Shown: in pieces, positions 1-50,165 of the stretch | How positions within the stretch are numbered: position 1 is the first letter of the stretch | Layout of the letters: each line of letters opens with the position of its first letter | Assembly: GCF_008693005.1 (NCBI RefSeq) | Contig: NZ_VXKE01000004.1 | Location: 1-50,165 of the forward strand | Direction of reading: 5' to 3' | DNA: 50,165 bases | Origin: Helicobacter canis | GTDB lineage: Bacteria > Campylobacterota > Campylobacteria > Campylobacterales > Helicobacteraceae | The notes under the pieces: generated by a model | Database searches by the model: none | Told to the model about the DNA's origin: nothing | The model's input: only the letters and a program-made list of their open reading frames with translations | Translations under genes and position numbers: made by a program

Positions 1-127
1 TGCGGTTGTCCCAAAATCCACAAAATCACTGCTATGATTACCCAAAGCTGAATCTCTGCGTGGGCGTGCTCGCTCGCGCTTGCACGCAGCCTTTAGGTAG
101 GGTCTTTGAAACAAGGGCGGGAGCCGA
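1..127. repeat. Terminal direct repeat showing a circular contig
   Basis: Bases 1-127 are identical to 50039-50165. An exact overlap of 127 bases is what a de Bruijn assembler with k=127 leaves on a circular contig. The genome is therefore about 50,038 bp and is either circular or circularly permuted with terminal redundancy, as in headful packaging. Genes at the two ends of the window are neighbours. Confidence 0.93.
64..87. other. Hairpin/cruciform just downstream of the DGR variable repeat
   Basis: GCGTGC (64-69) and GCACGC (82-87) form a perfect 6-bp stem around a 12-base loop. The hairpin lies between the stop codon of the variable protein (93) and the flanking repeat, 28 bases beyond the end of the VR on the coding strand. 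In the Bordetella phage DGR a hairpin/cruciform just after the VR promotes mutagenic homing. No matching hairpin follows the template repeat. The role here is inferred from position and shape only; GC-rich hairpins are common in this genome. Confidence 0.45.
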
Positions 128-2036
128 GGTCCCAATCCGCGCGAGAAAAGGCATTAGCACCAAGCCAGCACAAAACGCCCGCGTGGGCGGAGTCGCGCAG
201 GCTGCCGCCGTGTAACACTAGCCTAACTCCATCAGCGATCCAGCCTCCGTCCGTGGTGCCATTGGTGCTAGTGCCGCCATCGGTGCTTTTGGGGATCATC
301 GTGCCAGCAAAGACTCTTTTGACCTGCTGTCCAGAAGTGATATTGACCACTTTGCCTGTGTTGGTGTATTTGCTGCTGCTTGTCTCATCGCTGTAGTCTT
401 GCTCGTGGGTGGCAAGGTATAGAAGCTTGTCGTTCAAAAAGCAGCCGTCTAAAAACTCCCAAACATTGCCCGCCAAGTTGCAAATGCCGCGATAGATGTG
501 CGCTTGTGCTCGCTTGTCGCTGTCGCTTACAGGGATTGAAATGGTCTTGTTGCCCTGTCCAAAGTGCGCGGCGGGGTATAAAGAGTTGGCATTTTGCGCG
601 GAAGTGTTCCAGCTGTGGATCGCCCACTTGCTTTGATCTGTGGTTTTAGAGTCGGCAGTGCTGCCCATATAGCCTCTTTCAATGCAGTAGAGCAGTGCGA
701 TCGCCTCTCGCTCGTGGTGGTTTTGGATTTTAATGCCCCGTGTGAAGCTCTGCGTGCGAGATCTAAACCACTCGCGAGTTTGGTTGTTTGTGGGTCTTGG
801 GTTTGAGCGGACAAAGAAGCTGCCCTCCATACCCCCTAGGGGTATGCTCTCCCAGCTCCCTAGGTAGAATCCCTCCACTTTCACGCTAGAGACTATGCCA
901 GCTTTGTCTGTGCCGCGCCCTTGTAGGTTGGTGTAGCCTTGGTAGCCTGCTTTGTTTAGATCATAGCTAAAGGGTGCTAGGCTTGTAAGCTTTAGTAAGT
1001 AGCTTTGCGCATTAAACTCAAACTCTATATCGATCACATAGTGATCTGGGATTTTGCTTACACATTGATAAGTGGCGTTGTCAAGGTATTTTTGCATAGA
1101 GTCGCTCTCTAAAGTCGCGTCCTCTGGGAGTAGCTCTAGAGTGCCGTCATTTTTCAAAGCGTAGCGTTTGATGTGGGAGTGGGGCATATCTGCGCGGTCG
1201 AAAAATTTGGTTACAGGATCATCGTTGCTCTTTTCATTGAGTCGCTCTTGCACTTTGTCTAGCCAGAGTGTGTCCTCTGTCGTGCCTGTGTTTATGCGCT
1301 TAGATTTGTTGGTGTCGATGTTTTCGATAAAGCCAGCAAACACGGCGGCTTTGATTGTGAGAGTGATCGGCTCGCTCCACGCACTCGCCGCGCCTGTGGG
1401 GCTTATGGCGCGCACCTTTATGGTGGCTTGCGTGTCGCGGCTTGCGTCTATGGCTGTGAGTGTGTATGTGCCAGCTTGGAGGTCTTTAGTCTTCTCTGCG
1501 CTTAGGTTTTCTAGATTTAGCTCATAGGTGAGATTACTTCCGTGTGTGTCGCTGTGAGATGGGCTTATGGTGATCTCTCCGCTTGCTAGCTTTAGCAGCT
1601 CTTTGTGGCTGAAGCTTATGGCTGGTGTGGTTGGGGGGTTTTCCCCTAGGGTTTGGGTGTATTTGCCTAGTAGGTATAAATCGCGTGGGCTTGTGGCAAG
1701 GCTTGCTAGCTCTTTTGCCTTTTGAAGCAGGGTGGCTTTGGCTTGGGCGACTCGCTCTAGGCGGTCGGTGTTAAGCTCAAAAAAGCTCTTTAAAATGTAG
1801 GCTAGATCCTCTGCGCTCTTTGCACTTGCGCCTAGCTCTTTAAGCTTGTCTAAGATCTCTTGGCGGTGGGTGATGTTGGTCGCACTTGCTTGGGTGTCTT
1901 GCTCGCTTGGCACTTGGGGGGTGTCGGTGCTAGATTCTGGTGCGCCCTTTTGCTCTGGGCTTGCTTGCGGGCTGTCGCTGGACTCTGGCGATGAGATCTC
2001 GTGGCTGTGCTCTTGTTCGGTGAAATTTGTATCCAT
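93..2036 (-). CDS. DGR variable protein: tail-fibre tip with FGE/C-type-lectin-like domain
   Basis: This 647-residue protein is the diversified receptor-binding protein of a diversity-generating retroelement. Residues 1-60 are rich in Ser, Pro, Glu and Gln. About residues 180-230 resemble a fibronectin-type-III strand pattern. The C-terminal third looks like a formylglycine-generating-enzyme/C-type-lectin fold, with the diagnostic GNVWEF at about 523-528 and a Gly-Gly-Ser strand at about 610. The variable repeat encodes about residues 609-641 and stops just before the last seven residues. The start has a good ribosome site (AAAGGAG, 6-8 bases upstream). It is the last gene of the tail operon 4078-93, after a coiled-coil fibre and an assembly chaperone-like gene, which fits a displayed tip protein. 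The varied residues should line the ligand surface; the receptor is unknown. Confidence 0.88.
   Translation of the reverse strand: MDTNFTEQEHSHEISSPESSDSPQASPEQKGAPESSTDTPQVPSEQDTQASATNITHRQEILDKLKELGASAKSAEDLAYILKSFFELNTDRLERVAQAKATLLQKAKELASLATSPRDLYLLGKYTQTLGENPPTTPAISFSHKELLKLASGEITISPSHSDTHGSNLTYELNLENLSAEKTKDLQAGTYTLTAIDASRDTQATIKVRAISPTGAASAWSEPITLTIKAAVFAGFIENIDTNKSKRINTGTTEDTLWLDKVQERLNEKSNDDPVTKFFDRADMPHSHIKRYALKNDGTLELLPEDATLESDSMQKYLDNATYQCVSKIPDHYVIDIEFEFNAQSYLLKLTSLAPFSYDLNKAGYQGYTNLQGRGTDKAGIVSSVKVEGFYLGSWESIPLGGMEGSFFVRSNPRPTNNQTREWFRSRTQSFTRGIKIQNHHEREAIALLYCIERGYMGSTADSKTTDQSKWAIHSWNTSAQNANSLYPAAHFGQGNKTISIPVSDSDKRAQAHIYRGICNLAGNVWEFLDGCFLNDKLLYLATHEQDYSDETSSSKYTNTGKVVNITSGQQVKRVFAGTMIPKSTDGGTSTNGTTDGGWIADGVRLVLHGGSLRDSAHAGVLCWLGANAFSRADWDLGSRPCFKDPT
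116..210 (-). other. DGR variable repeat (VR)
   Basis: This 95-bp segment aligns without gaps to the template repeat at 49645-49739. There are 13 mismatches, and every one is a T in the template on the plus strand, i.e. an A on the coding strand. None of the 75 other positions differs. Changes fall at plus positions 128, 131, 137, 142, 143, 157, 158, 163, 164, 194, 196, 197 and 209. In protein terms, template Asn codons (AAC/AAT) become Arg, Asp, Leu, Ala, Arg, Asp and Asp, one Asn is unchanged, and an Ile becomes Leu. Confidence 0.95.
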
Positions 2037-8500: not shown

Positions 8501-9769
8501 AACATCTTCCTTGCTGCGATTTTGTATAAATGTAAAAAACTCATTATCATTCATTCCGCTTCTTAAACTCTCTGCTAATCTCTGTAATTGTTTTTCTGGC
8601 ATATTATGATAATATTGAATTAGTTTTTCAGGTTGAATCGCATCTATAAAGTGAGGTGGAGAGAAGTCTTTGTATGGTTTATATGACCTAGCCGCTATGC
8701 TTTTTTGTTGTTCTGTAACTCCTTTAATGTATTCATCTTTATTGCTTAAAGCTTTATCGTAACTTTTTTTATCATAATAATACATACTCATTCCATCATA
8801 CACTATAAAAGAGTCATTGTCTATTTTTACAATTTTATTGCTTGCTTGTTTGTCTAGCTCTAATTGTTTTATAACTTCTTGTTGCCATTGTGAAGTTCTG
8901 CCATTAAAATCTAGTTCATTATTTAAATCTTTTTTAGATTCTAACTCTTTTGCCTTTTGTAGTAATTCTTTTGTTTCACCTACACTTTTTTCACTTGCCT
9001 TTGCTTGTTTGATTATTTCTTGTGGGGTTTGTGGTATAATCTCATCTCTAGCAAGTGAAATAGCTTCGGTAGGCTTTTGCTCTGCTTTTGGTGGAGTAGT
9101 GGTAGCAGGTTCGACTCCTGCCCTTGCTAGTTTTTTGTATTTTGGATTATTGAGTTCTGCGCTATTAACTTTCTTTGCTGTGATGAGAAAATTCCCTTTG
9201 CTATCGCTATCAAGTATGATTAAATTTATTTTTTCACTATTGTTTTTATCTGCAAAAGGTAAAATAAATCCGCTTTTATCATCTGTGTAAGCTTGTTTTG
9301 CTTGGGCTATCTCTGCTGGGATTTGCTTTTGCTCCTCTAGTGTTAAAGCTTGATCATACTCGCCTTTTCTTGCTTCGCTAATGTGTCCTGCTCTCGCGCG
9401 TGTGATAAAAACGCTCGCGCTATGGTTGTTGTTTATAAGCTCTTGTAGGTCGTTATTTAGTGTTGCGATTTTTAAAATCTCTGGCGTGTTTTGGTAGTCT
9501 TTTTGCGCGATTTTTTCTAAAAACTCTCCATATTCTTGCGCGGTGGCTATGGGGAGATTGTCTAGCTCATCTTTAGTGAGTTTGCTTGTGGTTTTTGCGC
9601 TTAGGGTTGATTCTGCTTGCGCGCTAGGCTCTAGCTTTATAATCTCATCGCCCTTTTGCACTTGGGTGTAGCCTTTGGCTGCTAGGAGATCTTGCACGCG
9701 TGGCAGCTCGCGCAAATCCATATCAAAAAAGTAGGCTAGCTCTCCTTGTAGCTTCTCTAGGCAATACAT
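5507..9769 (-). CDS. Polyvalent phage protein with PBECR1-like, LPD3-like, ADP-ribosyltransferase-like and C-terminal nuclease-like modules
   Basis: A 1420-residue multidomain protein of the polyvalent class, thought to travel in the virion and be ejected into the host. Around 519-540 is a PBECR1-like nuclease core (phage-barnase-EndoU-ColicinE5/D-RelE type) with the conserved HRKELGDIDLVWG. About 737-830 resembles the LPD3 linker domain. About 914-1168 looks like ART-PolyVal, an ADP-ribosyltransferase fold: YHGS near the start and a Tyr-Asp-Gly-Ile strand and Ser-Gln-Ile-Lys near its end. A Gly-rich, possibly membrane-associating stretch follows near 1190-1230. The C-terminus (about 1310-1420) has a His-x4-Arg-His motif like RelE/EndoU-type nucleases. 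Start at 9769 has AGGGG upstream and a late-motif copy 50 bp away. Domain names come from motif recognition, not a search. Confidence 0.72.
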   Translation of the reverse strand: MYCLEKLQGELAYFFDMDLRELPRVQDLLAAKGYTQVQKGDEIIKLEPSAQAESTLSAKTTSKLTKDELDNLPIATAQEYGEFLEKIAQKDYQNTPEILKIATLNNDLQELINNNHSASVFITRARAGHISEARKGEYDQALTLEEQKQIPAEIAQAKQAYTDDKSGFILPFADKNNSEKINLIILDSDSKGNFLITAKKVNSAELNNPKYKKLARAGVEPATTTPPKAEQKPTEAISLARDEIIPQTPQEIIKQAKASEKSVGETKELLQKAKELESKKDLNNELDFNGRTSQWQQEVIKQLELDKQASNKIVKIDNDSFIVYDGMSMYYYDKKSYDKALSNKDEYIKGVTEQQKSIAARSYKPYKDFSPPHFIDAIQPEKLIQYYHNMPEKQLQRLAESLRSGMNDNEFFTFIQNRSKEDVIYAQGHGFLSYLRKYFDLDFSDYPFTNLFLRKFFGKDKEAQQENFTKYVDKLYKDNGYPFGYVFNDSKTMQTLKDEDALSKVQGINAIRLLLNAKYGHIENAFHRKELGDIDLVWGEVQGSGEQAKGWGLAKIIEKHLNAGDFKAFGEGEQGLINAISEIIQDGKVVTQNGVDSIVLRKNGQEYRVGISKGWDNVGENKWIITSYKNNKYKESAETSYHDTFTSKEPLENPVSTIIPQTQMPKDAPTPPTQKGLFDEVDSSEAPPSKINFTYTTGEAKGIAELRKDLKQALEPYKSTPITNKETGLQGVVTDTERNKISSKKAVDKSIANGFTRDEHFAAAQHLKNLFENATKAQTHNDYKQRENIAQVHRFVKDLYINDKPAQAKITLFEKIEGKNRIYTLELESLILLPQSSPHTQAGVAVQAQVTRDVVRPNANIAKTDEGNIAQDSNALLESTMKKFNYDERKAKDLLEWQKDSHPLTKDKNGVSKVFYHGSRAEFDTFETQEYNFNIGYWFSNDEKLAKDYVKEGQGILFKTFLNIKKPFIMEKELSKEKIAEINRIFNLTEQEQKEALKEVRRFKSAKKELELNGFEFLDFWRERIFLKHKESGKEFDIAHSCLTKKGIAERIVVIKQLKELSEYDKERLKQLQEFNALLPNSLTKMEKFARDYYKDFFKNETELYLLVAMRIDYWADNPRFKAAYGYPTRTKPLTPFYKKAGYDGILFNDREIVTFDSSQIKHIDNKGVDGKYFNESSPNIFSSNPHAGAGLLGGSVSGVEQDENGNITFSPEKFALGLLGGTGGSIAISKAVGKYAIMRRMEAKKHNKKLYNVFKAIDSSAKYGSKMNLIGKENLNADTLAYALARNKRFAINKLDEKVAKELGFKYPQDVRRSIDPNNVAHTLNRHGEQSNLVKFSGQKPVTLDEIAKYQDYADNATHKGISIGKRQETASISARQLDGEFYVVVEQIQKGQNELGFKTMYFERGILDDEKFNKLLKK
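9049..9130 (+). other. tRNA-like fold embedded antisense in the polyvalent gene
   Basis: TAGCAAG (9049-9055) pairs with CTTGCTA (9123-9129). Between them are a short D-arm-like hairpin (AGC-TTCGGTAG-GCT), an anticodon-like arm CTCTG-CTTTTGG-TGGAG with TTT in the loop, and a canonical T-arm GCAGG-TTCGACT-CCTGC. Defects are a missing T8, a weak D-stem and an 8-base variable loop. The opposite strand is read as protein (Ala-Arg-Ala-Gly-Val-Glu-Pro-Ala-Thr-Thr), a peptide typical of translated tRNA 3' ends. It may be a relic, an attachment site or chance. Confidence 0.35.
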
Positions 9770-28384: not shown

Positions 28385-29187
28385 GGAGAGTCAAACTAGA
28401 TGGTGTATTGGGCTTTTCTAAAGAAACCTGCTTCGCCTACGATGAGCGTTCCGAGTCCCCCACACCTTGCTCGCTCATACTTTTGAGAGCTCTTTACATC
28501 TCACAAAAGCGCAAGCGCACCACACACGGATTTTTTGTTTCTCACACCTAGCTTAGAGTCCTACTTCTAAACCTATAAGCGAGTGAGTGGGTCCCCCAAA
28601 GCGTGCTATGTTTTGAGAGTGCTAGCTTCTAAACTCTACAAGCAAGCAAAGCGCGCGAGTAGGTTATAAACCATTTGAGAAAAGAAAGCTTGAAATTTGC
28701 AGGCTTTTTTGCACATTTTACGCTAGTTTGACATCTTTGGCACAGAGTTGGCACAGGGCGGTGGGGCTTTGACCCCCCCAAATCCCCCAGAATTTCCTAA
28801 AATCCTAAAGGCTCTCCCCACGATTTTAAGGGTATTTGCTACCTTTGTCCCTACCTTTACCCCGCCTTTCCACTTGCCCAAAATTTTCATTTTTTCCTAG
28901 AAAGTAGATTCTAGGGGTGAAAAGGGGGAGCGGAATAGTGATGGATTAAGGCGTAAAGCGAGCAAGTGCTGGCGTAGCGCAAAAGCCAACCCACGCGCAT
29001 TGTGAGAGACTTTGTTCAAGAGCAGCACTTCGCAGCGCAAAAGCCAAGCAACGCGCTTAAAGCACGCACGCAAAGCCTCTTAAGCTCCGTAGAACCGCAA
29101 AGCCCCACGCGCAAACCTACCACCTTCAAACATTGGCGCACTGCATTGGCACACGCCCAAGCCTTAAACATTTGGCACAATCTGGCA

Positions 29188-37857: not shown

Positions 37858-40800
37858 CTAGCACCTAAGCTTCTCTAGGTTTGTGAGTATGTGCTTGTGC
37901 GCACTCTCTAGCTCTTGTGGGCTAAGATTCTCAAAGCCTGCGAGCCTTGCATAGCTTGCAAAGTCGTCTAAAGATTCTAGCTTTATGTCAGCTTGGTTAA
38001 ATGTTTTTGTGGTAGAATCGCTGCGGTTTGATGAGGGAGGCGATTTTGCTAGCGGCTCATCTGTAAAGCTATCACCGACTCGCGTCTGCATAGCTTCCAT
38101 TCTCTTTCCATTTCGCCGATCAATAAGCTCGGTAATGATAAACTTCCTTTCATCTCTCTTGCCTATGACTAGCGTGTATTTATCTGTGATTATCTCCACT
38201 TTATCCGCACTATCCTTGTAGATTTGTCCCTCTAAAATCTGCGGTATTTTGTCTAAAAGGTCTTTTACTGCTCGCTCTGCTTGCTCGCGGCTCATTCCTT
38301 GATTGATAAAATCTTGCATTCTGCGTTCTATAATATGCTCTAGCCCCTTGCTAGAATCTCCCCAGACTAAATCAATATCCCCCAGCTCTTTGCGGTGGAA
38401 TGCGCCTTGTATATGCCCCATTTTTGCGACAAGTAAAGTTTCTATCGCTCCCTTATTTTTAACCTTATATAATTCTTTATCTTTAGCTAAACGCTGCAGC
38501 GTTTTTTTATTATTTATCAAAAAACCAAAAGGGTGTCCATTGTCTTTAAAAAGTTTGTCAATATAGCGACCTAAATTATCCTTTGCTACCTCTAGTTTCC
38601 TTTGACCTAAGCTCATACTTGTAAAAGGCTCTTTGCTATCTGCAAAATGCTTGTGTATAAAAAACTCTGTGAAGTATTCCCCATTAAAAGATGATATGCC
38701 AAAAAATTTGTCTAAGGTTGGAATAAAAGCTATTCTTTCGCTCCCTATATTCACAGGCTCTTTTTCTAAAAATTCTAAAAGCTCTTTTTCTTTACCTTTA
38801 AATCCATTATCCAGAAAGCTTTTTCGTTTCTGTGCTTCTTGTCGTGTAATAAATTTACCTAAATATGTTGTAAAAAGTTCCCCATTCTCTCCTTTGGTGA
38901 TGCTTATAAGGTCTAAATCCTTATCATTTATTTTTCTCTCTATCACCAAAGCCTCGCCCTGTGTATAATGTCCTAAAATCTCACCTGACTCATCATTTTT
39001 TATTTTTTCTATAAATTCTTTTTGCCACGCATTTGTGTTATTTTCTGCTGTTTCTTTTACACTTTTGCCTTGCTCTTTTGCTTGTTTTATGATTTCTTGC
39101 GGTGTTTGTGGTATAATGTCGTCTTGATTTGCTTCGCTATTCAACGCTTTAGCGGTTAAATCGGGCTTAGCGATTATTGGAAGCTCGGGCAAGTCGCTGT
39201 ATAACACTTCTCCGCCCTCTTTAATTTTATTGTGTAAATTATTGAGATTCTTTGGCGCGTTGCTAGAGATTATCCACTGTCCTTGATCGTTTTTACTCAC
39301 GCTGGCAAAAAACTTCCCTAGCTTTTCATCTCTAAAATCTTTGGCAAAAATTATCGCGCCATCGACTTGCTTTACCACTGCGTTGGGTGCTTCTAAAGTC
39401 TCTTTGATATAGGGCAAAAACTCTAGCCTGTCTCGTTGCATAAGCTTCACCAAACTATTTGCGCTTAAACTTATTTGCTCCCCTTGCAAAATCGGCTCTA
39501 AGGCTTGTGCTACTTGCTCGCTAAATTGTGGTGTGTAGGATTCTTGCAAGTCTTTAAGCCCAAAGGTCTCTAGCCACTGCTGTGCGATGTCGGTGGGGAT
39601 TTGGTGGGTGTGTCCTTTTGTATCAGTGTAGGCTAGGCTAGAATCCACTTCATCAAAAAGCCCTTTTTGCGCTGGAGATTGCGTGGGTTGTGGTATAATG
39701 TCGCTAGGATTCTCAAATAGCCGAGCGGCTTTGGTAGCTCCTGCATCATCGTGATGAGAGTTCTCCACCCCTTTAGATTTTGGGCTACGATCTACGCTGC
39801 TGGGGTGGGCTAATCCTTCCAACTCTACACTATAAATCCTATTTCCATTTTCTACACTTTCTTTTAGTGTTATAAGTGCTTGGGCGTTTTGGTCTTGCAA
39901 GTCTTGGCTGTTTATGTATCTATGTATGCCTACGATGTCTGCGCTTTGATTTTTGGGGGCTTCAGTGCGTAGAAAATCGCTATTTTTAAAGAGATTTTCT
40001 ATATTTGCCACTGCGTTAAAATGCTGTTCTTTAGTGAATCCATTATTTACGCTTTTTTGTATCGCCTTATCGCTTAGCATTTTATCAATGCCTGTGCTGC
40101 TTAGTCTTGCTACTATGCCACTTTTATGGGTTATGTCTATGTTTTTAATACTTTGTAGCTGTTGCTTTACTTGCTCTCGTTGGGATTTTTTGGGCATATC
40201 TACACTAGAATCCACCTTTTGCGCTGGGGTCTGTGCTGGGGTTGGTGTGCTTGGTGCTTCTGTGCTGGCTTCTTTGCCTGCTTGGGATTCTAGCGTGTTC
40301 TTTGGTGGTGTGGGTGGTGTCGGTGGTGTAGGGGTGTTTGGCGGTGGTGTGCTAGCTTTGAAAGCATTATATTTCTCTCGTAGTTTTGGTAGCAGCTCCA
40401 CTGCTTCTGCGACTTCTTTGCCCTTATCTCCTTCGCGGATCATATATTCGATAAAGTCAAAAATGTCGGCTTGCTCGATATTTCTCCCCGCCGTGAAGCC
40501 TATCTCAAAGTCTAGTCTAGGGGCTAGCTGCTCTCTTATGCCGTGATTTGCTCCCTTTAGTGCTTCATAGAGATTACTGCTAGGATTCTCAAGCCGCATA
40601 AATCGCGCCAAGCTCGCCCCTAGTAAATCGGCTATTAAATTATCATAAGTGTTTGGCATTATCTCTAGCATCATATTGATACCACTAGCGTCTGTCGTGT
40701 CTAAAATATGCTTAATCTGCGCGTTAAGCTCTTTAAAGTTTGCCGCTCGCGTGGTGTGCTGGCTTGTGGCACTTTTATACATCGCGCCGAGCAAGTAGGG

Positions 40801-43800
40801 GCGCAAGTCAAGCTGCTTTAGCCCATACTCTACGGCGTTATTGCTTAGGATATGCCATAGCCCTGCGGTGTCGGTAAAGGTGTTTAGCGTCCTAGCTGCG
40901 TCCTCTTTGTCAAGCTTACTAAAGGCGTTAAGCATTTCGGTGATATTGGCGTTTTTATCGGCTTTTATGGTGTTTGCTAGTAGGGCTAAGTTGGCATCGT
41001 TTTCGTTGGGGTAGGGGCTAGGATCTAGGATTCTAGCGATTTTGCTCTTTAGCTCTTGCACGCTAGTGGATTCTAGCTGGCGTGGGAGCTTGGCAAAGTT
41101 TGGCGCGTATCGCCCTAGCACGCTGTAAATATGGTCGCCCAAGTTTTTAATGTCTTCTTTGTTGGAGTTGTAGGCTATGCTTAAAAGCTCTTTTATGCTT
41201 AGATCATCGCTTGGGGTTCGTAGTAGTAGTTCATCGCTGGCTAGCTCGATATTGAAGCGCTCTTTTATCGCCTTTTCATACGCGGCGCGGCTCTCTGGGC
41301 TAAAGTCTTTAAAGCCTTGCACGCGGTGGTTGCCTGTGATGACTTGCCCATCTTTTGCGATTATGGGGAGATCTTTATAGCCGCCTCGCCCTAGCACCAT
41401 CTCTGGCTTAAAGTTTTGCGCTATGGATTCTATGGTTTTATGCTCTTTTTGTGTGCGTGGCTGGAGTCCATCGGCGTTGAAGTTGGGCTTGACATCGCGA
41501 GCTTTGACGATTACAAAGTCTAGCTGGTAGATATTATTATCATCAGTGGCTATGCTGGTGGGGGGGTTCTCTGTGTGCTTCATCGCTATGGGCTGCCCTA
41601 GTGTTACTTCCCTTTCCATTTCGCTCTTGCCTGCGCGGCTGTCTTTTAGTCTTTGGATTTGGTCGTTTTTATCTTTAATCGCTTGGGCGGTGGCTTCATA
41701 TTTGGCGGCTTGGGCTGCTTGGGCTGCTTCTTGGGCTTCTTGCGTGGCTTGCTTTTGCGCTTGGGCTTGCTCTATGGGGGATAGTGTGGTAGAATTGCCG
41801 TTATCAGCTTTAGTAATAGTCGGCGAGTCTTGCCCGCCTTGTCCATTTAGTGAGCTTGAGCTGCCCTTGCTAGCTTCTGTGTCTGTCGGGCGCGCAGGAG
41901 TGTTGAAGCGGGGGGTTAATTCTAACTCTACACTATAAATCCTGTTTTTATCTTTATCTAGGCTTTCTTTTGTTGTGATGAGTGCGTTTGCATTGTTAAA
42001 AGGTGCGTTTAGTCTGTGGATTATCACGCTTGGATTGTCGCCTTTGTGGTTATGTGTCGCGGCTTCTTGTGATATGCTAAAGAGTCTCTCTATATCTCCC
42101 ACTGCTTCTAAATGCTCTTGCTTGCTAAATCCATTTTCTACGCTTTTTGCTATGGCTTTATCGCTTAGCATTTTATCTATCGAAGCGTGGTTTATATAAG
42201 CTTGCACGCCTTGTGCGTTTGTCAAAGGCTTATTTAAAATCGGCTCTAATCGTTGTAAAAGCTCTTGTTTTATCTCGCTTGTTTTTAGGCTGGAGTCTAG
42301 CGTCTTTGGTGTCGTGCTTGGCGTTATGGCTCTCTCTAGGCTCTCTTGTGCGCTATCGACCTGCCCCAAAATCTTAGCGATCTGCTCGCGTGTAGCGTTT
42401 GTGAAGTCGCCTTTGATCGCTCGCGCTTGCAGCTCTAGTTTAAACTCCCCGACACTTAGGCTAGAATCTAGTGCCTTTTTTAGGTGAAATCTTAGTGCTG
42501 CGCCCTGCACCTTTTCATTCAATCCTTTGGCAAAGGGAATATGTGGTAAAAGTCGCACGACATTGGCAAAGAGAGCTTTTATCGCTTGAAACTTTATCGC
42601 GCCCTCCAGTGTGGTGGCGATAGAGCTGCCCATTTTCTCTGTCGTGGTAGGGGCTAGCGAGCTTAAAATCTTGGCATCATTGCGGAAAAGTGTGTGAAAA
42701 TCTTGGGCTATGGCGATAAAGTCCTGCGCACTCTTGCTTTGGAAGTGCGCTTTCAAAGGATCTAGCCGCTTAAAAAACGCGCTAGAGTCTAGCGCACTGC
42801 TCTCTCCATAGCGCACTAGGCTTATCTCTAGCATATCTTGGAGCAGCTTTAGCTCCACTTGCTCGCGTGCGCTCTTTGGTAGAGAGCCTAGCAGGGCTTC
42901 AAAGTTTGGGATACTATCGCCTTGCGCTAGGAAAAATCGGCTAAGAGAGTTTGCCACTTGCTCATAGCTCTTGGCTCTATCACGCACTTTGAGCTTATCG
43001 ACTAGCTTTAGGGTCTCTTTCATCTTGGCATAGTCGCTTAGGGCTGTGTCAAAAAGTGTGCGCGCATCGTTGTAGAGTGCTTTGTTTTGCGCAAAAATCG
43101 CTTCTATGCCTGCTTGTATATCGCGCTTGATAAAGCCATTTACCGCGTCTTTGACAAAGCTTCTAAAGTTTGGGTCGGTGGCTTGCTTGTGGTAGGCGTT
43201 AATCGTTTTAAGCGCGTTGTTTAGGCTCTCAAAGGTTACGCCCTTGGGGTTGTAAATGCTCGATTCTACAAAGTGCAAAAACTTCGCGCTATCCTCTACC
43301 ATAACCCCTGAATCTAGCAGCTTTTGCTTAAAGCCCTCAAAGCTTTGGGTGTTAAACTTACTCACTTCGCCTAGCTCTAAGTGCTCTGGCGTGTTTGGCT
43401 CATCGCGCTTCAAAACTACGCGGTAGCTATCATCATAAACCCCTTGCAAGATGTCCTCTATGGCTTGCTTATAAGAATCTTTTGTGCCTTTTTCAAAGTT
43501 GTTAAAGACATCTTTGATCGTGTTTGGTGCTAGCTCAAATCGCTCTAGCTGGTGTGCTAGCTTCTGGCTTGTTTGGTCTAAAATGTTCAAAAGATTTTTC
43601 TGTATCACAGGGCTAGCGTTTGCCGCTTCGCTTAAAAACGCGCTTAGATTCCCGCTCTCATCAGCGCGGATCGCTCGTATAAAGTCCTTTTGCGCTTGCT
43701 TTTGTGAAGTAAAGGCAAAGGTATCATAAAGCGATTTCGCGCCCTTGACTATGTAGCTATCACTTCCTAGCTTGGATTCTAGGGAGTTGAGTGCGCTTTG

Positions 43801-45297
43801 TGCTTGGCTTGTCTTGGTCGTGCCGATTTGCACCTCCGCGCCAAAAATGGATTCTAGCTCTTTTAGCTCTGCTTGGACTTCTTTTGGCAGGGTGGTGTTG
43901 ATGAGCTTTTGCGCGGCGGCTTTGTTGCCATCGTGGGCGCGGGAGATAAAGCCTAGCACGGGGGTGTAGTCGATCGCTGTGCCTGCGATATTTTTAAGCT
44001 TCTCTGGGTTTAGGGTTTTGATCGCTGTGCCTGCGACTTTAAGCACGGCATCTGCTGCGATATTGAGTGCGCCCTCTTGTGCGCCGTGTAGTAAAGCTTG
44101 GGCTAGATCTATCTTTTTATTTGCTAGCACATCTGCGATCATCGAGTCTGTAACCCCCCCGCCAAACGCCCCCGCCGCGCCATAGGCTATCATACCTTTA
44201 AGCTTACCCTTTTTATAGCCATACTCCGCCCCTGCGATCGCCCCTGCTAGGCTGCCTATGTTGTCTTTAAACACGCCTTTAATCTCGTCCCATAGTCCTT
44301 GCTCGACTTTGTAGGCTTTCTCATCTTTGATGAAGTAAAGCCCCGTTTTGTTGTAGGCTAGGGTGTCAAAGCCTAGCTCCTTTGCCACTATGGCATAGTC
44401 ATCAATCATCGCTTTTTGCTTTTTGTCAAACTCTTTGCCGTGTTTTAGTGCGCTGATAAGTCCTAGGAACTGCTCGTTACTATTGACATTTTCTAGGCGT
44501 TTTTGCGCGGAGACAAAGTTGCTAGCACTTTCTTTGGCGTTTTCTCGGTCTAGGTAGTAATCTACTAGCTCTTTGTCGCTGTTATTTCTCAACCAAGAGC
44601 TAATCGCGCCCACGCGCTGCTCTATGATCTCGCGCTCTTGCGGGGTGAGCTTGTAGTAGTTGCTAGGGTTATCTAGCTTTCTTTGCGCTAGGGTTTTATA
44701 GGTGTTGTAAGATTCTAGCTCGAAGTCATAAGCCTTAGCCTGCGCGTTTTTGCCGCCAAAGAGTGCCGCGCTTGCATCGTGGCTTAGGTCAAAAATATTG
44801 CTAAAAATATCTTGGTTTTCAAAGTAAGCTTCGCGTAAAAACGGCGAGTCTCCATACTCTTTAGCAAATTGCTCGCTTGTAACGCCTGATCTTTTAAGGT
44901 GGTTTAGGATCTCTTGGGCTTTGTGGCGGCGTGTTTCTAGCTCTTTTTGGCGGAATGGTGTGGGGTTGATTTGGTCGAGCACTTGCGTGGCTCGCATTGC
45001 TAGATCTTTGTAAAAGGGCTGGTTTTTTAGCTCATCATCAAGGGCTTTTAGCTCTCTGTAGGTCTGCTCGCGGCGTGGTCGGTAGTTTAGGGGTTTTGCT
45101 GGGTTGTTAGGATTGACTTTGATCTCTTTTTGCCCGCTCTCCATAAGGTTTGTAAAAATTGCTTGATCATCAAGTCCTTCAAACTTGCTAAAGTCTAGCT
45201 CGCTCTCGACATTGCGCAGGTAATCTACAAACTGCCCTTGTAGGTCTGTGCTGTTGCCATAGAGAGTTTTTACCTTTTCAAGGTTGATACTAGCCAT
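37858..45297 (-). CDS. Giant polyvalent phage protein with two LPD3-like, a DdrB-ParB-like and a PBECR1-like module
   Basis: About 2479 residues. I choose ATG 45297 (AAAGGG upstream) rather than 45315. Order: N-terminal helical region (1-330); a Gly/Ala-rich membrane-active stretch (about 345-430); a long helical body; an LPD3-like module (about 1035-1125); a DdrB-ParB-like domain (about 1255-1335, with ITGNHRVQGF and the Lys-Asp-Leu-Pro-Ile-Ile strand) followed by its helical partner region; a Pro-rich linker; a second LPD3-like module (about 1720-1830); a PBECR1-like nuclease (about 2300-2400, core HRKELGDIDLVWG); and a short helical end. Such proteins are thought to be injected with DNA and to act early on the host. 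Late-motif copy 93 bp upstream. It shares blocks with the 1420-residue protein. Confidence 0.72.
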   Translation of the reverse strand: MASINLEKVKTLYGNSTDLQGQFVDYLRNVESELDFSKFEGLDDQAIFTNLMESGQKEIKVNPNNPAKPLNYRPRREQTYRELKALDDELKNQPFYKDLAMRATQVLDQINPTPFRQKELETRRHKAQEILNHLKRSGVTSEQFAKEYGDSPFLREAYFENQDIFSNIFDLSHDASAALFGGKNAQAKAYDFELESYNTYKTLAQRKLDNPSNYYKLTPQEREIIEQRVGAISSWLRNNSDKELVDYYLDRENAKESASNFVSAQKRLENVNSNEQFLGLISALKHGKEFDKKQKAMIDDYAIVAKELGFDTLAYNKTGLYFIKDEKAYKVEQGLWDEIKGVFKDNIGSLAGAIAGAEYGYKKGKLKGMIAYGAAGAFGGGVTDSMIADVLANKKIDLAQALLHGAQEGALNIAADAVLKVAGTAIKTLNPEKLKNIAGTAIDYTPVLGFISRAHDGNKAAAQKLINTTLPKEVQAELKELESIFGAEVQIGTTKTSQAQSALNSLESKLGSDSYIVKGAKSLYDTFAFTSQKQAQKDFIRAIRADESGNLSAFLSEAANASPVIQKNLLNILDQTSQKLAHQLERFELAPNTIKDVFNNFEKGTKDSYKQAIEDILQGVYDDSYRVVLKRDEPNTPEHLELGEVSKFNTQSFEGFKQKLLDSGVMVEDSAKFLHFVESSIYNPKGVTFESLNNALKTINAYHKQATDPNFRSFVKDAVNGFIKRDIQAGIEAIFAQNKALYNDARTLFDTALSDYAKMKETLKLVDKLKVRDRAKSYEQVANSLSRFFLAQGDSIPNFEALLGSLPKSAREQVELKLLQDMLEISLVRYGESSALDSSAFFKRLDPLKAHFQSKSAQDFIAIAQDFHTLFRNDAKILSSLAPTTTEKMGSSIATTLEGAIKFQAIKALFANVVRLLPHIPFAKGLNEKVQGAALRFHLKKALDSSLSVGEFKLELQARAIKGDFTNATREQIAKILGQVDSAQESLERAITPSTTPKTLDSSLKTSEIKQELLQRLEPILNKPLTNAQGVQAYINHASIDKMLSDKAIAKSVENGFSKQEHLEAVGDIERLFSISQEAATHNHKGDNPSVIIHRLNAPFNNANALITTKESLDKDKNRIYSVELELTPRFNTPARPTDTEASKGSSSSLNGQGGQDSPTITKADNGNSTTLSPIEQAQAQKQATQEAQEAAQAAQAAKYEATAQAIKDKNDQIQRLKDSRAGKSEMEREVTLGQPIAMKHTENPPTSIATDDNNIYQLDFVIVKARDVKPNFNADGLQPRTQKEHKTIESIAQNFKPEMVLGRGGYKDLPIIAKDGQVITGNHRVQGFKDFSPESRAAYEKAIKERFNIELASDELLLRTPSDDLSIKELLSIAYNSNKEDIKNLGDHIYSVLGRYAPNFAKLPRQLESTSVQELKSKIARILDPSPYPNENDANLALLANTIKADKNANITEMLNAFSKLDKEDAARTLNTFTDTAGLWHILSNNAVEYGLKQLDLRPYLLGAMYKSATSQHTTRAANFKELNAQIKHILDTTDASGINMMLEIMPNTYDNLIADLLGASLARFMRLENPSSNLYEALKGANHGIREQLAPRLDFEIGFTAGRNIEQADIFDFIEYMIREGDKGKEVAEAVELLPKLREKYNAFKASTPPPNTPTPPTPPTPPKNTLESQAGKEASTEAPSTPTPAQTPAQKVDSSVDMPKKSQREQVKQQLQSIKNIDITHKSGIVARLSSTGIDKMLSDKAIQKSVNNGFTKEQHFNAVANIENLFKNSDFLRTEAPKNQSADIVGIHRYINSQDLQDQNAQALITLKESVENGNRIYSVELEGLAHPSSVDRSPKSKGVENSHHDDAGATKAARLFENPSDIIPQPTQSPAQKGLFDEVDSSLAYTDTKGHTHQIPTDIAQQWLETFGLKDLQESYTPQFSEQVAQALEPILQGEQISLSANSLVKLMQRDRLEFLPYIKETLEAPNAVVKQVDGAIIFAKDFRDEKLGKFFASVSKNDQGQWIISSNAPKNLNNLHNKIKEGGEVLYSDLPELPIIAKPDLTAKALNSEANQDDIIPQTPQEIIKQAKEQGKSVKETAENNTNAWQKEFIEKIKNDESGEILGHYTQGEALVIERKINDKDLDLISITKGENGELFTTYLGKFITRQEAQKRKSFLDNGFKGKEKELLEFLEKEPVNIGSERIAFIPTLDKFFGISSFNGEYFTEFFIHKHFADSKEPFTSMSLGQRKLEVAKDNLGRYIDKLFKDNGHPFGFLINNKKTLQRLAKDKELYKVKNKGAIETLLVAKMGHIQGAFHRKELGDIDLVWGDSSKGLEHIIERRMQDFINQGMSREQAERAVKDLLDKIPQILEGQIYKDSADKVEIITDKYTLVIGKRDERKFIITELIDRRNGKRMEAMQTRVGDSFTDEPLAKSPPSSNRSDSTTKTFNQADIKLESLDDFASYARLAGFENLSPQELESAHKHILTNLEKLRC

Positions 45298-45311
45298 TTT
45301 TTTACCCTTTG

Positions 45312-45353
45312 TCATTGCGAGCCTTGCAGGGCAAGGCGTGGCAATCCATAGAA
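45312..45353. repeat. GTCATTGCGAG hairpin repeat
   Basis: GTCATTGCGAG, stem CCTTGC/GCAAGG, then CGTGGCAATCCA. The copies at 45504-45537 (CGGAT/ATCCG), 23091 (CGGAC/GTCCG), 19709 (CCGAC/GTCGG) and 21133 (ATTTGC/GCAAAT) share ends but have different, always self-complementary, stems. Confidence 0.85.
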
Positions 45354-45537: not shown

Positions 45538-47640
45538 CTATTTCGCACTAGATTCTAGCTTTTTAATCTCTTGGGCTAGTGCGCTAGAAAAAAACTCCCC
45601 TATAGGTGCGTCTTGCAAGTAGCTTTCTAGGTCTTTATCTAGGTTTGGGTTAAATCGTATGCTATAAGGGTCGCTAGTGCCTCCTAGTCGCCCGTGGTCT
45701 AAGTTTCCTAGCTCTAGGGTTTGGTATGGGTCGCTATCGCCCCCACTTTGCCAGCGTAAAATCTCGTGCCAGCTCAAGGCTAGCTCTTGGGCTTTTGCGT
45801 AGGGGAGTGTGTCTTGGTGGTAGAAGTAGCGTGCGCACTCGTGGGAGCTTGGGCGTGGGAGCTTTGGCGTGCGTCTTATGTGGTGCTCGCACCAAAATTT
45901 CCCAATATCGCTCCAAAATCCAGCATTACAGGCTAAATGCTCTCGCTTCATTTCTCCATTTTTATACACAAACACATCACTACCACAAAGGCTCTCTTTC
46001 ATCTGCGCCCAAACTTCGCGCGTGTTAAAGTCGCTAGCGTGTAAAGTCTCGCCCTGCTCTGCTAGCACTTGGTGTGCTAAAAACTCGCTATAGCCTTGTG
46101 TGTAGAGATTTTGGAGCTTGGTAGCTATATTTTTTTTGTAGGTTCGATCATTCATAGCGATATATGTCGCATAGTTTATAAGCAAATCATAAGCCTTGAT
46201 AGCCTTGGTGGCTTTGGTAGAATCTAGGGCTTTAAGGTGTTTGATTTTGGCTTGCTTGTAGGCTTGCTCTCTGGCGTCTTGCTGCTGCTCGCTCTCCTGC
46301 TCGCTCCCCCAAACTAGCTGGGATACTTGCTCATCATCTAGCCCTTGGGCTTTTAGGCTAGATTCTAGCTCTAGTTTGATGATGTTTTCTTGGATTTTGC
46401 TAGGGGGTTGTGGGCGTGAATTTTGGTCGCTTGGGGTTTGGGGGTGTAAAGAGCTGTAAGGATTCTCCAAAGCTTGGCTGTCTTTGTGCGCGGCTTTTTT
46501 GGCTAGGTGCTTTGAGTAGGCTAGCTCGCTTGCTCGTAAAGCGTGGTTATAGCGGCGGTTTTGGGCTAGGAAATCGCGGCTTTGTGCGTAGGTGTGGAAC
46601 TGCTCCTCTTTTAGGTTGAAGTTGAAGTCATAGACTGCTTGGAGGTAGTCGCTAGAGCTGTATTGCTCCGTGCTGCCTAGGTAGATAGCTAGCTCGCTAA
46701 GGACTTTGCGCAGGTCTTGGGAGTTGTTGTTTAGGGTGTTTTGGCGGTAGGCTAGGTCGTTTTCTGGCTCTTTGGCTTGGGCTTGGGGGGTGTGTGGGCT
46801 GATCTTTTGCATAAAGCCTTCATTCCCTGCTAGATCGTAGTGCGCTCGCCCTTGGGTTTGCTCATCAAGCTGCTTTAGATTCTGGTCCTGCTGGCTTGGC
46901 TCGGGCTTGGTTTGTAGGTGGCTTGGGGTGTAGGGCTGGCTTGGCTGGTAGGTCTCACTGCCTGCGCTGTAGTTTTTGTAGCGGAATCCGTTGGCATAGT
47001 TGCTATAGCCTTGGTAGATCTCAAGTGCGCCCTCTTGTAGAGCCTTTCTGCCCCCTAGGGTTTGCAGGCGGCTTTGGGCGTGGGTGGCTTGCACGCTTTG
47101 GGTGTAGGTGATGTAGGTGAGTGATTGCTCGGCGGCGGTGTTACCTATGCTTTGGATTTGGACGAGCATTGTTGTGATCGTGGCTAGCGCGCTTGTAAGC
47201 ACTGCTACCCAAACAGGCAGCCCAGTGAGTGCGTTAAGTGCTATGCCTATGACAAACTCCGCCACCCAGGAAGCTATTTGCGCCCCACTTACTAGATCCA
47301 TAGCGTAGTTGCTCTCAAAGCGTGCTTTATGCTCTGCCAAAGTGTCTGTGAAGTAGCGTAGTCCCTTGCGGTGTAGGTAGATCTGCTCGCCTGCTGTCCA
47401 TAGCTCCCCTAGCGTGCCTGCTAGGTAGTGCTTCTCAAGTGTTTTTAGCCAGTCTTTGGCAGTGGCTATGGTGTGTCTATCGCTAGGGCTTAGGGGTAGC
47501 ACTCTATCGCTAGTTTCTAAATCTATCACAATATCGGCTTTAAGCACGATCGCACTAGCTTTGTCAAAAAGCTCGCTTCTATACTTCGCCCTTAGTCTAT
47601 AAAACTTGCTCCCATCAAAAAGCCCCCAGAATCGCTCCAC
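45538..47640 (-). CDS. Large membrane-active virion protein, unknown family
   Basis: A 700-residue protein. Residues about 115-160 hold two closely spaced hydrophobic segments (Ala/Val/Ile/Leu-rich with Gly), enough for a membrane hairpin. About 225-330 are a Gln/Pro/Ser-rich linker. The rest is helical with many Gln and Lys, ending in a Tyr/Trp/His-rich part (about 560-690). The GTG start overlaps the DUF1353 stop as TAGTG. Size and form resemble podovirus internal core or ejection proteins that open a channel through the envelope. No enzymatic motif seen. Confidence 0.5.
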   Translation of the reverse strand: MERFWGLFDGSKFYRLRAKYRSELFDKASAIVLKADIVIDLETSDRVLPLSPSDRHTIATAKDWLKTLEKHYLAGTLGELWTAGEQIYLHRKGLRYFTDTLAEHKARFESNYAMDLVSGAQIASWVAEFVIGIALNALTGLPVWVAVLTSALATITTMLVQIQSIGNTAAEQSLTYITYTQSVQATHAQSRLQTLGGRKALQEGALEIYQGYSNYANGFRYKNYSAGSETYQPSQPYTPSHLQTKPEPSQQDQNLKQLDEQTQGRAHYDLAGNEGFMQKISPHTPQAQAKEPENDLAYRQNTLNNNSQDLRKVLSELAIYLGSTEQYSSSDYLQAVYDFNFNLKEEQFHTYAQSRDFLAQNRRYNHALRASELAYSKHLAKKAAHKDSQALENPYSSLHPQTPSDQNSRPQPPSKIQENIIKLELESSLKAQGLDDEQVSQLVWGSEQESEQQQDAREQAYKQAKIKHLKALDSTKATKAIKAYDLLINYATYIAMNDRTYKKNIATKLQNLYTQGYSEFLAHQVLAEQGETLHASDFNTREVWAQMKESLCGSDVFVYKNGEMKREHLACNAGFWSDIGKFWCEHHIRRTPKLPRPSSHECARYFYHQDTLPYAKAQELALSWHEILRWQSGGDSDPYQTLELGNLDHGRLGGTSDPYSIRFNPNLDKDLESYLQDAPIGEFFSSALAQEIKKLESSAK

Positions 47641-48032
47641 TACTTATAGCCCTTACACTTTGCATAGATTCTAACGCCTAGATAAATCACGCGTGCTTTA
47701 AAGGGGCTAAAGCTCCTAGTCTCTAGCATTGCTTCTAAAAATATCTCATCGCACTCTTTGCGCGAGATTTTGCCCGCGTGGGCTTGCTCGCATAGATAGT
47801 CGTGCAAAATCGCGCATTTTAGTCCTCTGCCGTAGCGTTTGACGATAAAATGCAGTCCAAAGTTGCTAAAGCCATCGCTAATAAAGCCTGCTGGGACTTC
47901 TACGCGGCTCTCTTGTGCGCCTTTGCGGTAGTAGAAAAAGCCTTGCAAAAGTGTCAAACTCTTACCATCGTTGCTAAACTCCGCCCTTATAGGCTCTGTA
48001 AATCTCGCTAGCTCTTTTTGCTTGTCTTTCAT
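47640..48032 (-). CDS. DUF1353 family protein
   Basis: A 130-residue protein with the DUF1353 signature: Pro-Ala-Gly-Phe-Ile-Ser-Asp-Gly (about 47-54), Ala-Ile-Leu-His-Asp-Tyr-Leu (about 73-79) and a Glu-Cys-Asp-Glu-Ile-Phe-Leu-Glu-Ala-Met helix (about 92-101). The His-Asp and acidic residues could hold a metal. The family is common in phage late regions; function is unknown. It lies next to the reverse transcriptase gene but does not look like the basic four-helix Avd accessory protein of DGRs. AAAAAGGAG before ATG 48032. Confidence 0.8.
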   Translation of the reverse strand: MKDKQKELARFTEPIRAEFSNDGKSLTLLQGFFYYRKGAQESRVEVPAGFISDGFSNFGLHFIVKRYGRGLKCAILHDYLCEQAHAGKISRKECDEIFLEAMLETRSFSPFKARVIYLGVRIYAKCKGYK

Positions 48033-48073: not shown

Positions 48074-48090
48074 CAAAAAAGGGGTAGCTA
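48074..48090 (-). promoter_or_regulatory. Weak late motif copy
   Basis: CAAAAAAGGGGTAGCTA, with only the A-rich/GGGGTA core kept, about 45 bp before the DUF1353 start. It separates the DGR from the downstream virion genes. Confidence 0.35.
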
Positions 48091-49134
48091 AAAGTGAAAA
48101 AGCCTAGGCTCACGGCGGTAAAAGCATAGCCCTTTTAGTGGGTAGGCTATGCGTGATTTCTTGCAGTAGGCTTTGATCTTTGGCTTAAGCTTTCTAAAGA
48201 CTTTGCTAAAGAGATTGAAGCAGCAAGCTCTTTGGTAGAATCCATAAAAGCTAAAAATCCTTGCAAACTCTTTGCCCCCTACGCGCTTGATCTTTGCTAG
48301 GGCTTTGATCTTTCTGGCATTTCTAGCACGCAGCAGGGCAAAATCTGCATAGAGCTTCACGCCCAAAAAGTCTAGCCCTTGTGCGATTGGCTTTAGCTTG
48401 ATTTTGTGCAGCTCTAGCCCTAGGGCTTGGGTCTTTGCTTGCAGGGTGTGAAAATGCTGCCACAAAGCCTGCTTTGAGTTGCTAAAAGCTACGATGTCAT
48501 CAGCATAGCGCAAAACTTTCACACCTTTGCACGCTGGGTAGTCTAGCTCTCTTAGGTAGAAATTCCCCAAAATCGCGCTTAAGTAGCTCCCTAGGCTTAA
48601 GCCTTTGGGTTGTGGGCTGTGTAGGAGTGCGTGCAGCAGCTCTAGGGCTTGCTTGTCTGCGATCTTGCGCGAGATTTGCGCTAGCAAAAGCTCTCTATCG
48701 ATATTGGCATAAAATTTTCTAATATCCACTTGCAAGTAGTGCGTATAGATTCTAGCATATCGCTTCGCGCGTTTAAGGGTATAATCCACCCCGCGCCCCT
48801 TGATACAGGCGGCACTCTGTGTGCTTAGGCTTTTTAGTAGTAGTGGCTCGATGATGTTGGCGCAGGCGTGGTGGGCGATTTGGTTGGGATAAAAGGGGGC
48901 GATCTCTAGCTCTCTGTCTTTGCCATTTTCGTGCTTGATTTTGCGCGTGGTGGGCTCTAGCAGTGGCTTTTGCCCTAAGAGTCGCTGCTGCACACTTTTG
49001 GCATAGTAGGCTCTATTTTGTAGCACTTTTTGCACGCTTTTTCTGTGCTTTTTGCCGCGTGCTGCCTTGTCTATGGCTTGGTTGATATTCTCTAGGCTTA
49101 TGATTTGTGTGTATAAGTTTTTATATCTTTTCAT
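48088..49134 (-). CDS. DGR reverse transcriptase
   Basis: A 348-residue reverse transcriptase that copies the template repeat RNA with errors at adenines. Motifs: the N-terminal Pro-Phe-Tyr-Pro-Asn-Gln-Ile-Ala-His-His (80-89); catalytic Asp in LQVDIRKFYANID (134-146); the DGR-specific block GLSLGSYLSAILGN (178-191), which corresponds to the Leu/Ile-Gly-x3-Ser-Gln motif of other DGR enzymes; and the active-site YADD (210-213). Thumb region about 235-300. In the DGR block the usual Gln is Ala187. The C-terminus is basic, as expected for binding RNA. It lies 510 bp after the template repeat. GGAAG lies before the ATG. Confidence 0.92.
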   Translation of the reverse strand: MKRYKNLYTQIISLENINQAIDKAARGKKHRKSVQKVLQNRAYYAKSVQQRLLGQKPLLEPTTRKIKHENGKDRELEIAPFYPNQIAHHACANIIEPLLLKSLSTQSAACIKGRGVDYTLKRAKRYARIYTHYLQVDIRKFYANIDRELLLAQISRKIADKQALELLHALLHSPQPKGLSLGSYLSAILGNFYLRELDYPACKGVKVLRYADDIVAFSNSKQALWQHFHTLQAKTQALGLELHKIKLKPIAQGLDFLGVKLYADFALLRARNARKIKALAKIKRVGGKEFARIFSFYGFYQRACCFNLFSKVFRKLKPKIKAYCKKSRIAYPLKGLCFYRREPRLFHF

Positions 49135-49208
49135 TGTCGCGCTTCCTTATCTTTGCGCAAGCGCAAAAGTCGCTTTTCACCGCTTGGGCAGCAGAGCCGC
49201 CCTACGCT

Positions 49209-49248
49209 CCTAAAGCTGGCTTGCGTCTTGCGCGCAAGCCGAGAGATT
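49209..49248. repeat. Hairpin leader repeat, copy 2
   Basis: Same 40-bp sequence as 35606-35645 with two base differences; here the stem GGCTTGCG/CGCAAGCC is perfect. It stands about 75 bp before the reverse transcriptase start, within the TR-RT spacer. Confidence 0.75.
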
Positions 49249-49419
49249 GTTGTTTCTTATAAAATATTGTTTCTTTTCTCCCCGTAGTGTTCGAGCTTGA
49301 AGCCTACTAGCCACTTGCCCGAGCTTGCGCTCTTTGGGGGCTTTCTTTTCGTTTTGGCGTGGCGACTTTTAAAAAGTCGCGCATTTATCGCTCAAGGCTT
49401 AAAAGAGTAAAGTTTTTAT

Positions 49420-49640
49420 TTTGGATTGCCGCGCCTTGCAAGCAAGGCTCGCAATGACAGAGGTAAGTTTCTCAACAAGCCGCTGGATTCTAGGATTTTT
49501 GATGAATTTTGTGCGTTGCGAGAAAAAGCACAAGGGAGTTACCTTGAGTGGTAATGACCGCAGGGCTTTTTTGACGCTCGCGCAAAAGTCGCAAAACAAG
49601 CGCAGCGAAGTTTCTTTAGAAAAAGCCGAATCCTTTAAGA
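49420..49640. repeat. Palindromic repeats in the TR-RT spacer
   Basis: 49421-49460 is a reversed GTCATTGCGAG element (stem GCCTTGC/GCAAGGC). 49485-49632 is a reversed copy of the 24900-25035 element with core GGGAGTTACC...GGTAATGACCGC, ending 12 bp before the template repeat. Both may be transcribed as part of the DGR RNA. Confidence 0.75.
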
Positions 49641-49644
49641 AATA

Positions 49645-49739
49645 GGCGGGAGCCGATGTTCCAATTCGCGTTAGAAAAGGCATTATTACCATTCCAGCAC
49701 AAAACGCCCGCGTGGGCGGAGTTGTTCAGGCTGCCGCTG
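49645..49739 (-). other. DGR template repeat (TR)
   Basis: This 95-bp segment is noncoding and matches the variable repeat at 116-210. On the coding strand it has 20 adenines, 13 of which differ in the variable repeat; the other 75 positions are identical. Read in the target frame it has eight AAC/AAT codons. Such codons can become many residues but never a stop. On the circle it is 414 bp from the VR and 510 bp upstream of the reverse transcriptase, the usual VP-VR-TR-RT order. Confidence 0.95.
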
Positions 49740-49797
49740 CTCTTTTAAGCCTACGGCTGCTTACAAGACAGCCGTTAAGGTGGATTCGGCTTTGCGC

Positions 49798-50100
49798 GCT
49801 TTTGGTGGATTCTGCGCGGTGGGCTTGCTCATTACCGACTAGGTAAATCCCTGCGCCCACCGCTTGAAAGCCCCCAAAACCAGCGAAGCGGTGCAAGCGC
49901 AGCGCAGCAGGTTTCTTTAGAAAATCATCGCAAAATCCTAGAATCCTTTGCAGGGTTTTATCAAAAAAAGATTCTAAGATTTGCGGTGTTGCTAGTGGTG
50001 CTTTTTGTGGATTTTGGGGCAGAGCTAGACTTGGGGTCTGCGGTTGTCCCAAAATCCACAAAATCACTGCTATGATTACCCAAAGCTGAATCTCTGCGTG
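49798..50100. repeat. Repeat stack between TR and the contig end
   Basis: 49803-49880 repeats the primase-embedded element of 19566-19650. 49875-49925 is a 48-bp-type element. 49975-50100 is the large palindrome with arms TTTTGTGGATTTTGGG/CCCAAAATCCACAAAA, which runs through the circular junction into base 62. No gene is supported in 49135-50038 apart from the TR. Confidence 0.8.
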
Positions 50101-50165
50101 GGCGTGCTCGCTCGCGCTTGCACGCAGCCTTTAGGTAGGGTCTTTGAAACAAGGGCGGGAGCCGA

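Follow-up and report, generated by a model that had tools for sequence, protein, structure and literature searches.

The closest described systems to the one reported here are the diversity-generating retroelement (DGR) of Bordetella phage BPP-1, the DGRs of gut phages and, as the same phage group, a set of Helicobacter canis prophages. The BPP-1 cassette runs mtd-avd-TR-brt, that is, a tail gene with the variable repeat (VR) at its 3′ end, avd, a template repeat (TR) and a reverse transcriptase (RT). The stretch of DNA that we analysed (50,165 nucleotides, hereafter the window) is the entire contig NZ_VXKE01000004.1 (C4) of a 26-contig, 1.93-Mb H. canis genome (assembly GCF_008693005.1; G000). 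It very probably holds a complete DGR of a temperate H. canis phage. From a fixed TR, and by means of an RT predicted to err at adenines, this DGR probably changes the end of a tail gene with a predicted role in host recognition; the phage itself likely exists in this DNA in both integrated and circular form.

As in BPP-1, the target, TR and RT follow in this order on one strand, the VR lies at the 3′ end of a tail gene, here with adenine-only differences from the TR, and the RT belongs to the same clade and has the same fold. In contrast, where BPP-1 has avd between mtd and TR, none was recognised in the window cassette; the RT motif that reads IGSLTSQ in BPP-1 is LGSYLSA in the window; and no relationship of the target to Mtd was detectable, an hhalign comparison of the two giving no match. 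The H. canis prophages are those of isolates Hcanis32756/T, 12740, 01463 and 12410 (BK070053-57; PMC11840440), of which Hcanis32756T is the phage described here; in their annotation the cassette genes are hypothetical or retron-type. The gut-phage DGRs (crAss-like and Bacteroides phages) have RTs among the remoter phage-record matches, at ∼27–36% identity, and have other targets: the search with the window target matched just four H. canis records among 50,697. The system is of a known kind, a DGR, with an unusual RT motif.

All parts of the cassette lie on the minus strand. Read round the circle, the target gene comes first (an open reading frame (ORF) of 647 aa at 93..2036, read from 2036 to 93, encoding a predicted tail protein), with the 95-bp VR (116..210) in its 3′ end and thus at the C-terminal end of the protein. 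It is followed after 414 bp by the 95-bp TR (49645..49739), which contains 20 adenines, and after a further 510 bp by the RT gene (48088..49134; 348 aa, with LGSYLSA and YADD motifs). The cassette thus combines the features that mark a DGR: the VR falls within the 3′ end of a protein-coding gene, its differences from the TR are confined to TR adenines, and an RT of the DGR clade lies near the TR. Viewed linearly the parts sit at opposite ends of the window, whose first and last 127 bases are an exact overlap (1–127 = 50039–50165, no strand) marking the junction of a circle. This overlap is the true junction, and the circle is real, because BK070056 (‘isolate Hcanis32756’, 45,012 bp) runs unbroken from target to TR to RT and is identical, across the junction, to the window in circular form. 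The cassette order is also identical, each time on one contig, in BK070053 (identical to BK070055) and in strain NCTC 12410. A preliminary description, made from the letters of the window, had proposed a complete DGR divided between the two ends of the window and joined through a genuine 127-bp overlap. The TR/VR pair, the crossing of the junction by BK070056 and the order kept in the relatives bear this out, and the positions it gave for target, VR, TR and RT hold, as does its count of 20 TR adenines; the span it assigned to the system (48088–50165) does take in the RT and TR, but omits the target and VR at the left end.

The contig carries phage genes for terminase, portal, major head protein, primase, helicase and integrase, and by its integrase the phage is temperate. 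The window has its own GenBank counterpart in BK070057 (‘isolate Hcanis32756T prophage’, host Helicobacter canis, 50,073 bp), the identity of the two resting on the first 50,000 bases of that record, which equal window 93–50092. The portal has matches in 171 phage records, and prophages of H. cinaedi, H. pylori and other Helicobacter make up many of these, in agreement with the earlier assignment to a Helicobacter-type phage.

The gap-free alignment of VR and TR spans 95 bp and contains 13 mismatches, all of which fall at the 20 TR adenines. The chance of 13/13 falling on 20 of 95 positions is 2e-11, a value slightly flattered by the chosen ends, since the scan closes a block at the first non-adenine mismatch and the block ends are thus set by rule. 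A plain alignment gives the same block; extended to 97 bp, it shows 15 mismatches, 14 at A and one, at the edge, at another base. When the scan was repeated on the window with C or G as the free letter, it found no pair; with T it found only this pair on the other strand, and dinucleotide shuffles of the window gave any pair in 0 of 20 cases. In the frame of the target, AAC and AAT codons abound in the TR. The signature recurs in BK070053, where nine of nine VR/TR differences are at TR adenines. The two repeats agree up to the end of GGCTCCCGCC (116..125 in the VR, with its TR copy at 49645–49654) and diverge beyond it, and by analogy with BPP-1 this shared end is a candidate initiation site of homing, resembling the initiation of mutagenic homing (IMH) element.

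The RT matches PF00078 (RVT_1) in Pfam and phrog_1423 (reverse transcriptase). Its placement was taken from a careful tree, built on 30 of 142 aligned rows, which replaced a quick 57-row tree with long-branch warnings. The window RT falls in a clade of 24, together with BPP-1 brt and the RTs of loci having their own TR/VR, and this DGR clade is split from six group II and RT-Cas1 enzymes at 100/99. A position outside the clade, which the preliminary description had named as the result that would speak against it, was not seen. The predicted structure (pLDDT 89) has the BPP-1 DGR RT (8ub7) as its best PDB match, with TM values of 0.82/0.87, and 8ub7 is also the best PDB match by sequence (E 6e-23).

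Two assemblies of what appears to be one strain provide a natural experiment, in which, within the compared DNA, only the VR changed. That BK070056 and BK070057 come from one strain is read from the number 32756 shared by the isolate names and from their near-identity, and the T in Hcanis32756T suggests the type strain. Between the window and BK070056 there are 11 differing positions in 45,012 bases, all of them in the VR and all facing TR adenines; the remaining 44,917 compared bases, including the TR and RT, are identical. The differing VR site nearest the terminal overlap is window base 128, immediately after the 127-base overlap. Because a graph assembler stops where reads branch, the end of the contig is likely to be the trace of mixed VRs in the reads. 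The VR change may have arisen either within a culture or between stocks. Taken as a whole, the DGR is real and bears strong signs of recent activity.

Variation among related targets is distributed in the same way. A protein search found 13 relatives of the target, and codon variation was counted over 13 close targets, namely ten close relatives together with the window, BK070056 and BK070053, with P0131-P0133 and NCTC 12410 left out as remoter. The mean variation was 2.05 bits at the 12 codons with TR adenines, compared with 0.06 bits at the 19 other VR codons and 0.13 bits at the 316 other positions from residue 301. Between two of the relatives, P0122 and P0123, 9 of 744 residues are different, each of them at a codon with TR adenines. 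For NCTC 12410 we used genome G004, taken to be this strain on the grounds that its contig C1 is matched by BK070054 (isolate Hcanis12410) at 99.9% over 16,293 bases. One 8-kb stretch of this genome is present in two copies, on its contigs C1 and C3, which have the TR in common and different VRs; of the 17 columns at which the copies differ, 11 are in the VR stretch, five form a cluster between TR and RT and one is elsewhere. The five-column cluster lies at G004:C3:71856-71864, in prophage stretches that are otherwise nearly identical. BK070054 as deposited (25,478 bp) is without RT and target, probably because the deposited stretch was cut short, since G004 carries target, TR and RT beyond it.

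A number of observations weigh against the interpretation of the locus as a working DGR that acts on a host-recognition gene. The motif (I/V/L)GxxxSQ, customary in DGR RTs though not a defining feature, reads LGSYLSA in the RTs of the window and of NCTC 12410, so that its first half is kept and SQ is absent, and no Avd-like protein, another customary but not defining part, was recognised by Pfam among the nine proteins flanking the cassette. Over 45,743 bases, VR included, BK070053 and BK070055 show no difference and hence no turnover. The NCTC 12410 copies also differ in two short stretches outside the VR; by manual count, the VR on C1 has 12/12 substitutions at adenines and a 3-base gap, and that on C3 has 9/10 at adenines and a 1-base gap that leaves it frameshifted. 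For the target itself, a Pfam search gave no match, and the AlphaFold2 fold model, built with 13 sequences, failed (pLDDT 34). Some of these points would be explained if the DGR had once been active and were now silent, the VR differences being standing variation between culture-collection stocks. The identical VRs of BK070053 and BK070055 and the frameshifted VR of NCTC 12410 fit this, and the VR change between the two assemblies may itself be an old one. However, the RT frame is intact with YADD, 11 VR bases have changed against 44,917 others unchanged, and the overlap stops one base short of the first differing site, as would be expected with mixed reads; we give this explanation a small chance. 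It is very improbable that the 127-base overlap arose in assembly and that the parts of the cassette are not neighbours at all. The overlap is of a suspect length, 127 being a common k-mer size of assemblers, and contig C3 of the window genome also has a 127-base overlap with the window, but an artefact is at odds with the exact spanning of the junction by BK070056, provided that this record was not closed manually, and with the order kept on one contig in BK070053 and NCTC 12410. Hardly credible, finally, is the chance presence beside a repeat of an RT from a retron, a defence system or a group II intron. Whilst GenBank calls the BK070056 RT ‘Retron-type’ and there are weak matches to PADLOC and NCBIfam models of other RT classes, every NCBIfam match is below its cut-off and BPP-1 brt shows the same pattern of weak matches; tree, fold and TR/VR all agree on a DGR, and the adenine-only VR changes contradict a chance association.

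Whether the DGR acts on a receptor-binding protein depends on the target. Residues 284–646 match phrog_5302 ‘tail protein’ (E 4.7e-28), and a PDB profile search of the target gave nothing below E 0.09. By hhalign (probability 92), the C-terminal domain shows a relationship to the target of a different DGR, that of genome G141; the G141 target itself has no solved-structure match. DGR targets in phages are mainly receptor-binding proteins according to the abstract of PMC10743442, and the window target is likely to be a host-recognition protein. There is a small chance that it is instead some other protein displayed on the phage or host surface, not the receptor-binding tip, and that the DGR serves another purpose. 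The generality of the ‘tail protein’ match, the lack of a Pfam match and the failed fold model would all allow this; on the other side, the matched family is a phage tail family, the C-terminal domain is related to that of another DGR target, and the published tendency is towards receptor-binding proteins.

By the mechanism that we infer for this DGR, the TR would be transcribed and its RNA reverse-transcribed with random bases placed at adenines. The mutated cDNA would then replace the VR, beginning at the shared GGCTCCCGCC end. The altered residues would come to lie on the binding face of a putative C-type-lectin-like domain at the tail tip, and progeny might be able to bind altered or different host surface structures. 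Retargeting of the receptor by the DGR is inferred from this chain of steps.

The RT motif is characteristic of the whole group to which the window RT belongs. The RT protein search gave 186 matches, and the following figures are for the best 120 of these. The Helicobacter RT clade comprises the first 27 among the matches listed, one of which (P0022) is named H. canis by its source; 24 have LGSYLSA, one has LGNYLSA and two do not cover the motif. Among the 93 remoter RTs there are 90 with SQ, two with SA and one with RQ. In the tree, the two remoter SA proteins (P0062 and P0101) form the sister group of the Helicobacter clade, at 97/93. Scanning with P0101 led to a single locus, L047, which has a TR/VR of its own (18 adenine mismatches in 121 bp) but the motif SQ, so that no TR/VR could be obtained for this second SA group from that scan. 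In the accessible text of PMC3521204, SP, SH, NQ, PA, AQ and VQ are given as the last two residues in 15 of 155 DGRs, with SA unlisted there, and these non-SQ exceptions still have adenine exchanges; the SA motif is therefore no bar to membership of the DGRs. The same text proposed the SQ motif as what makes a DGR RT err at adenines. Here, adenine-site VR changes are plain despite the SA motif, and the clade-wide replacement of SQ by SA bears on the question of which part of a DGR RT makes the adenine errors. It could be that the whole Helicobacter phage DGR clade carries out adenine-specific mutagenic retrohoming without the SQ glutamine or a recognisable Avd, so that the glutamine is not what causes the adenine errors, and that the culturable H. 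canis strain offers a natural system for watching VR turnover; we consider the balance for and against this proposal to be about even.

RT and target are present together in four of the five H. canis prophage records (BK070053-57), and each of the three strain numbers that have distinct sequences, namely 32756, 12740 (BK070055, isolate Hcanis12740) and 12410, carries the DGR. More widely, an RT match was obtained in 5 of 121 genomes of the family: G000 and G004, which belong to this clade, G141, G029 and G128. The match in G029 is an RT-Cas1, and that in G141 is another DGR, with SQ. The latter (L057, on G141:C12), from another genus of the same family, looks unrelated; its TR/VR lies near L055:2645-2968 and shows 15 adenine mismatches across 116 bp, the scan rule again fixing where the block stops. 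This contig may be foreign, a guess from a large neighbouring ORF resembling a siphovirus tail gene. A locus in a genome of the same order, L021 (G046:C182), has one TR and two candidate VRs, with 21 and 10 adenine mismatches. Scans with the window RT gave four loci in IMG/VR (best 33%) and three in the genome contigs (best 31%).

We appear to have here the first description of a DGR from a Helicobacter phage, and the strain concerned is one already cultured and sequenced. Full-text searches on DGRs in Helicobacter, Epsilonproteobacteria and Campylobacterota and on prophages of H. canis and other Helicobacter, with supplements and most subscription journals outside their scope, gave no report of one, in line with the novelty suggested beforehand. 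The main text of PMC11840440, on these prophages, does not contain ‘reverse transcriptase’, ‘retro’ or ‘diversity-generating’; the accessible text of PMC4860318 has none of ‘canis’, ‘reverse transcriptase’ and ‘retro’; and the main text of the large DGR survey PMC8144416 does not contain ‘helicobacter’. Nor does that word occur in the accessible text of PMC3521204, which places 2.6% of its DGRs in Delta/Epsilonproteobacteria. The RT of H. pylori treated in the accessible text of PMC4978471 is a different, Abi-like enzyme.

A search of the genome for Avd with PF05635 gave no match, but its controls were silent too; nor did the small ORFs of the cassette, which are not conserved as genes, yield an Avd candidate. 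On the 3′ side of the VR the window has an inverted repeat (64..87, minus strand), and such repeats are found at this place in three phages. Inverted repeats after the VR are described in other DGRs, with consensus loops, in the accessible text of PMC3240598, and the loops seen here are off that consensus. Folding gave z-scores of -3.3 for BK070053 and -3.2 for NCTC 12410; that of the window was -0.3, with 65 of 200 shuffles as good, and is thus no better than chance. The inverted repeat is possibly a homing hairpin or a terminator. Downstream of the RT, on the same strand, is a conserved neighbour (47640..48032) of the PF07087 (DUF1353)/phrog_1158 phage tail assembly chaperone family, with 92% identity to its counterpart in BK070053 and 64% to that in NCTC 12410.

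A probable attachment-site region, with no strand, lies near the integrase at 28902..29028, where 127 bases are identical to the end of contig C3 (13,315 bp) of the same genome. Since the end of C3 equals this part of the window near the integrase, it suggests an integrated form of the phage beside the circle in the same DNA. The start of contig C5 has 87% similarity to window 28921–29183, and from these shared bases the region 28902–29183 is likely to hold the attachment site and a trace of the integrated form.

Dispersed repeats of ∼50–120 bp are common to intergenic phage DNA (1–57 and elsewhere) and the host chromosome, where they occur on contigs C1, C7, C8, C10, C12, C14, C21 and C22. 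Two small ORFs, 49399–49692 and 49726–50067, were rejected as genes, their matches in relatives being scattered like dispersed repeats. A tRNA-Lys called by ARAGORN at 9050–9129 is probably spurious, as it lies inside the long ORF 5507–9769 on the other strand. The region 37858–45315 holds an ORF of 2485 aa, a ‘hypothetical protein’ in GenBank, which matches phrog_4668 and other phage families of unknown function.
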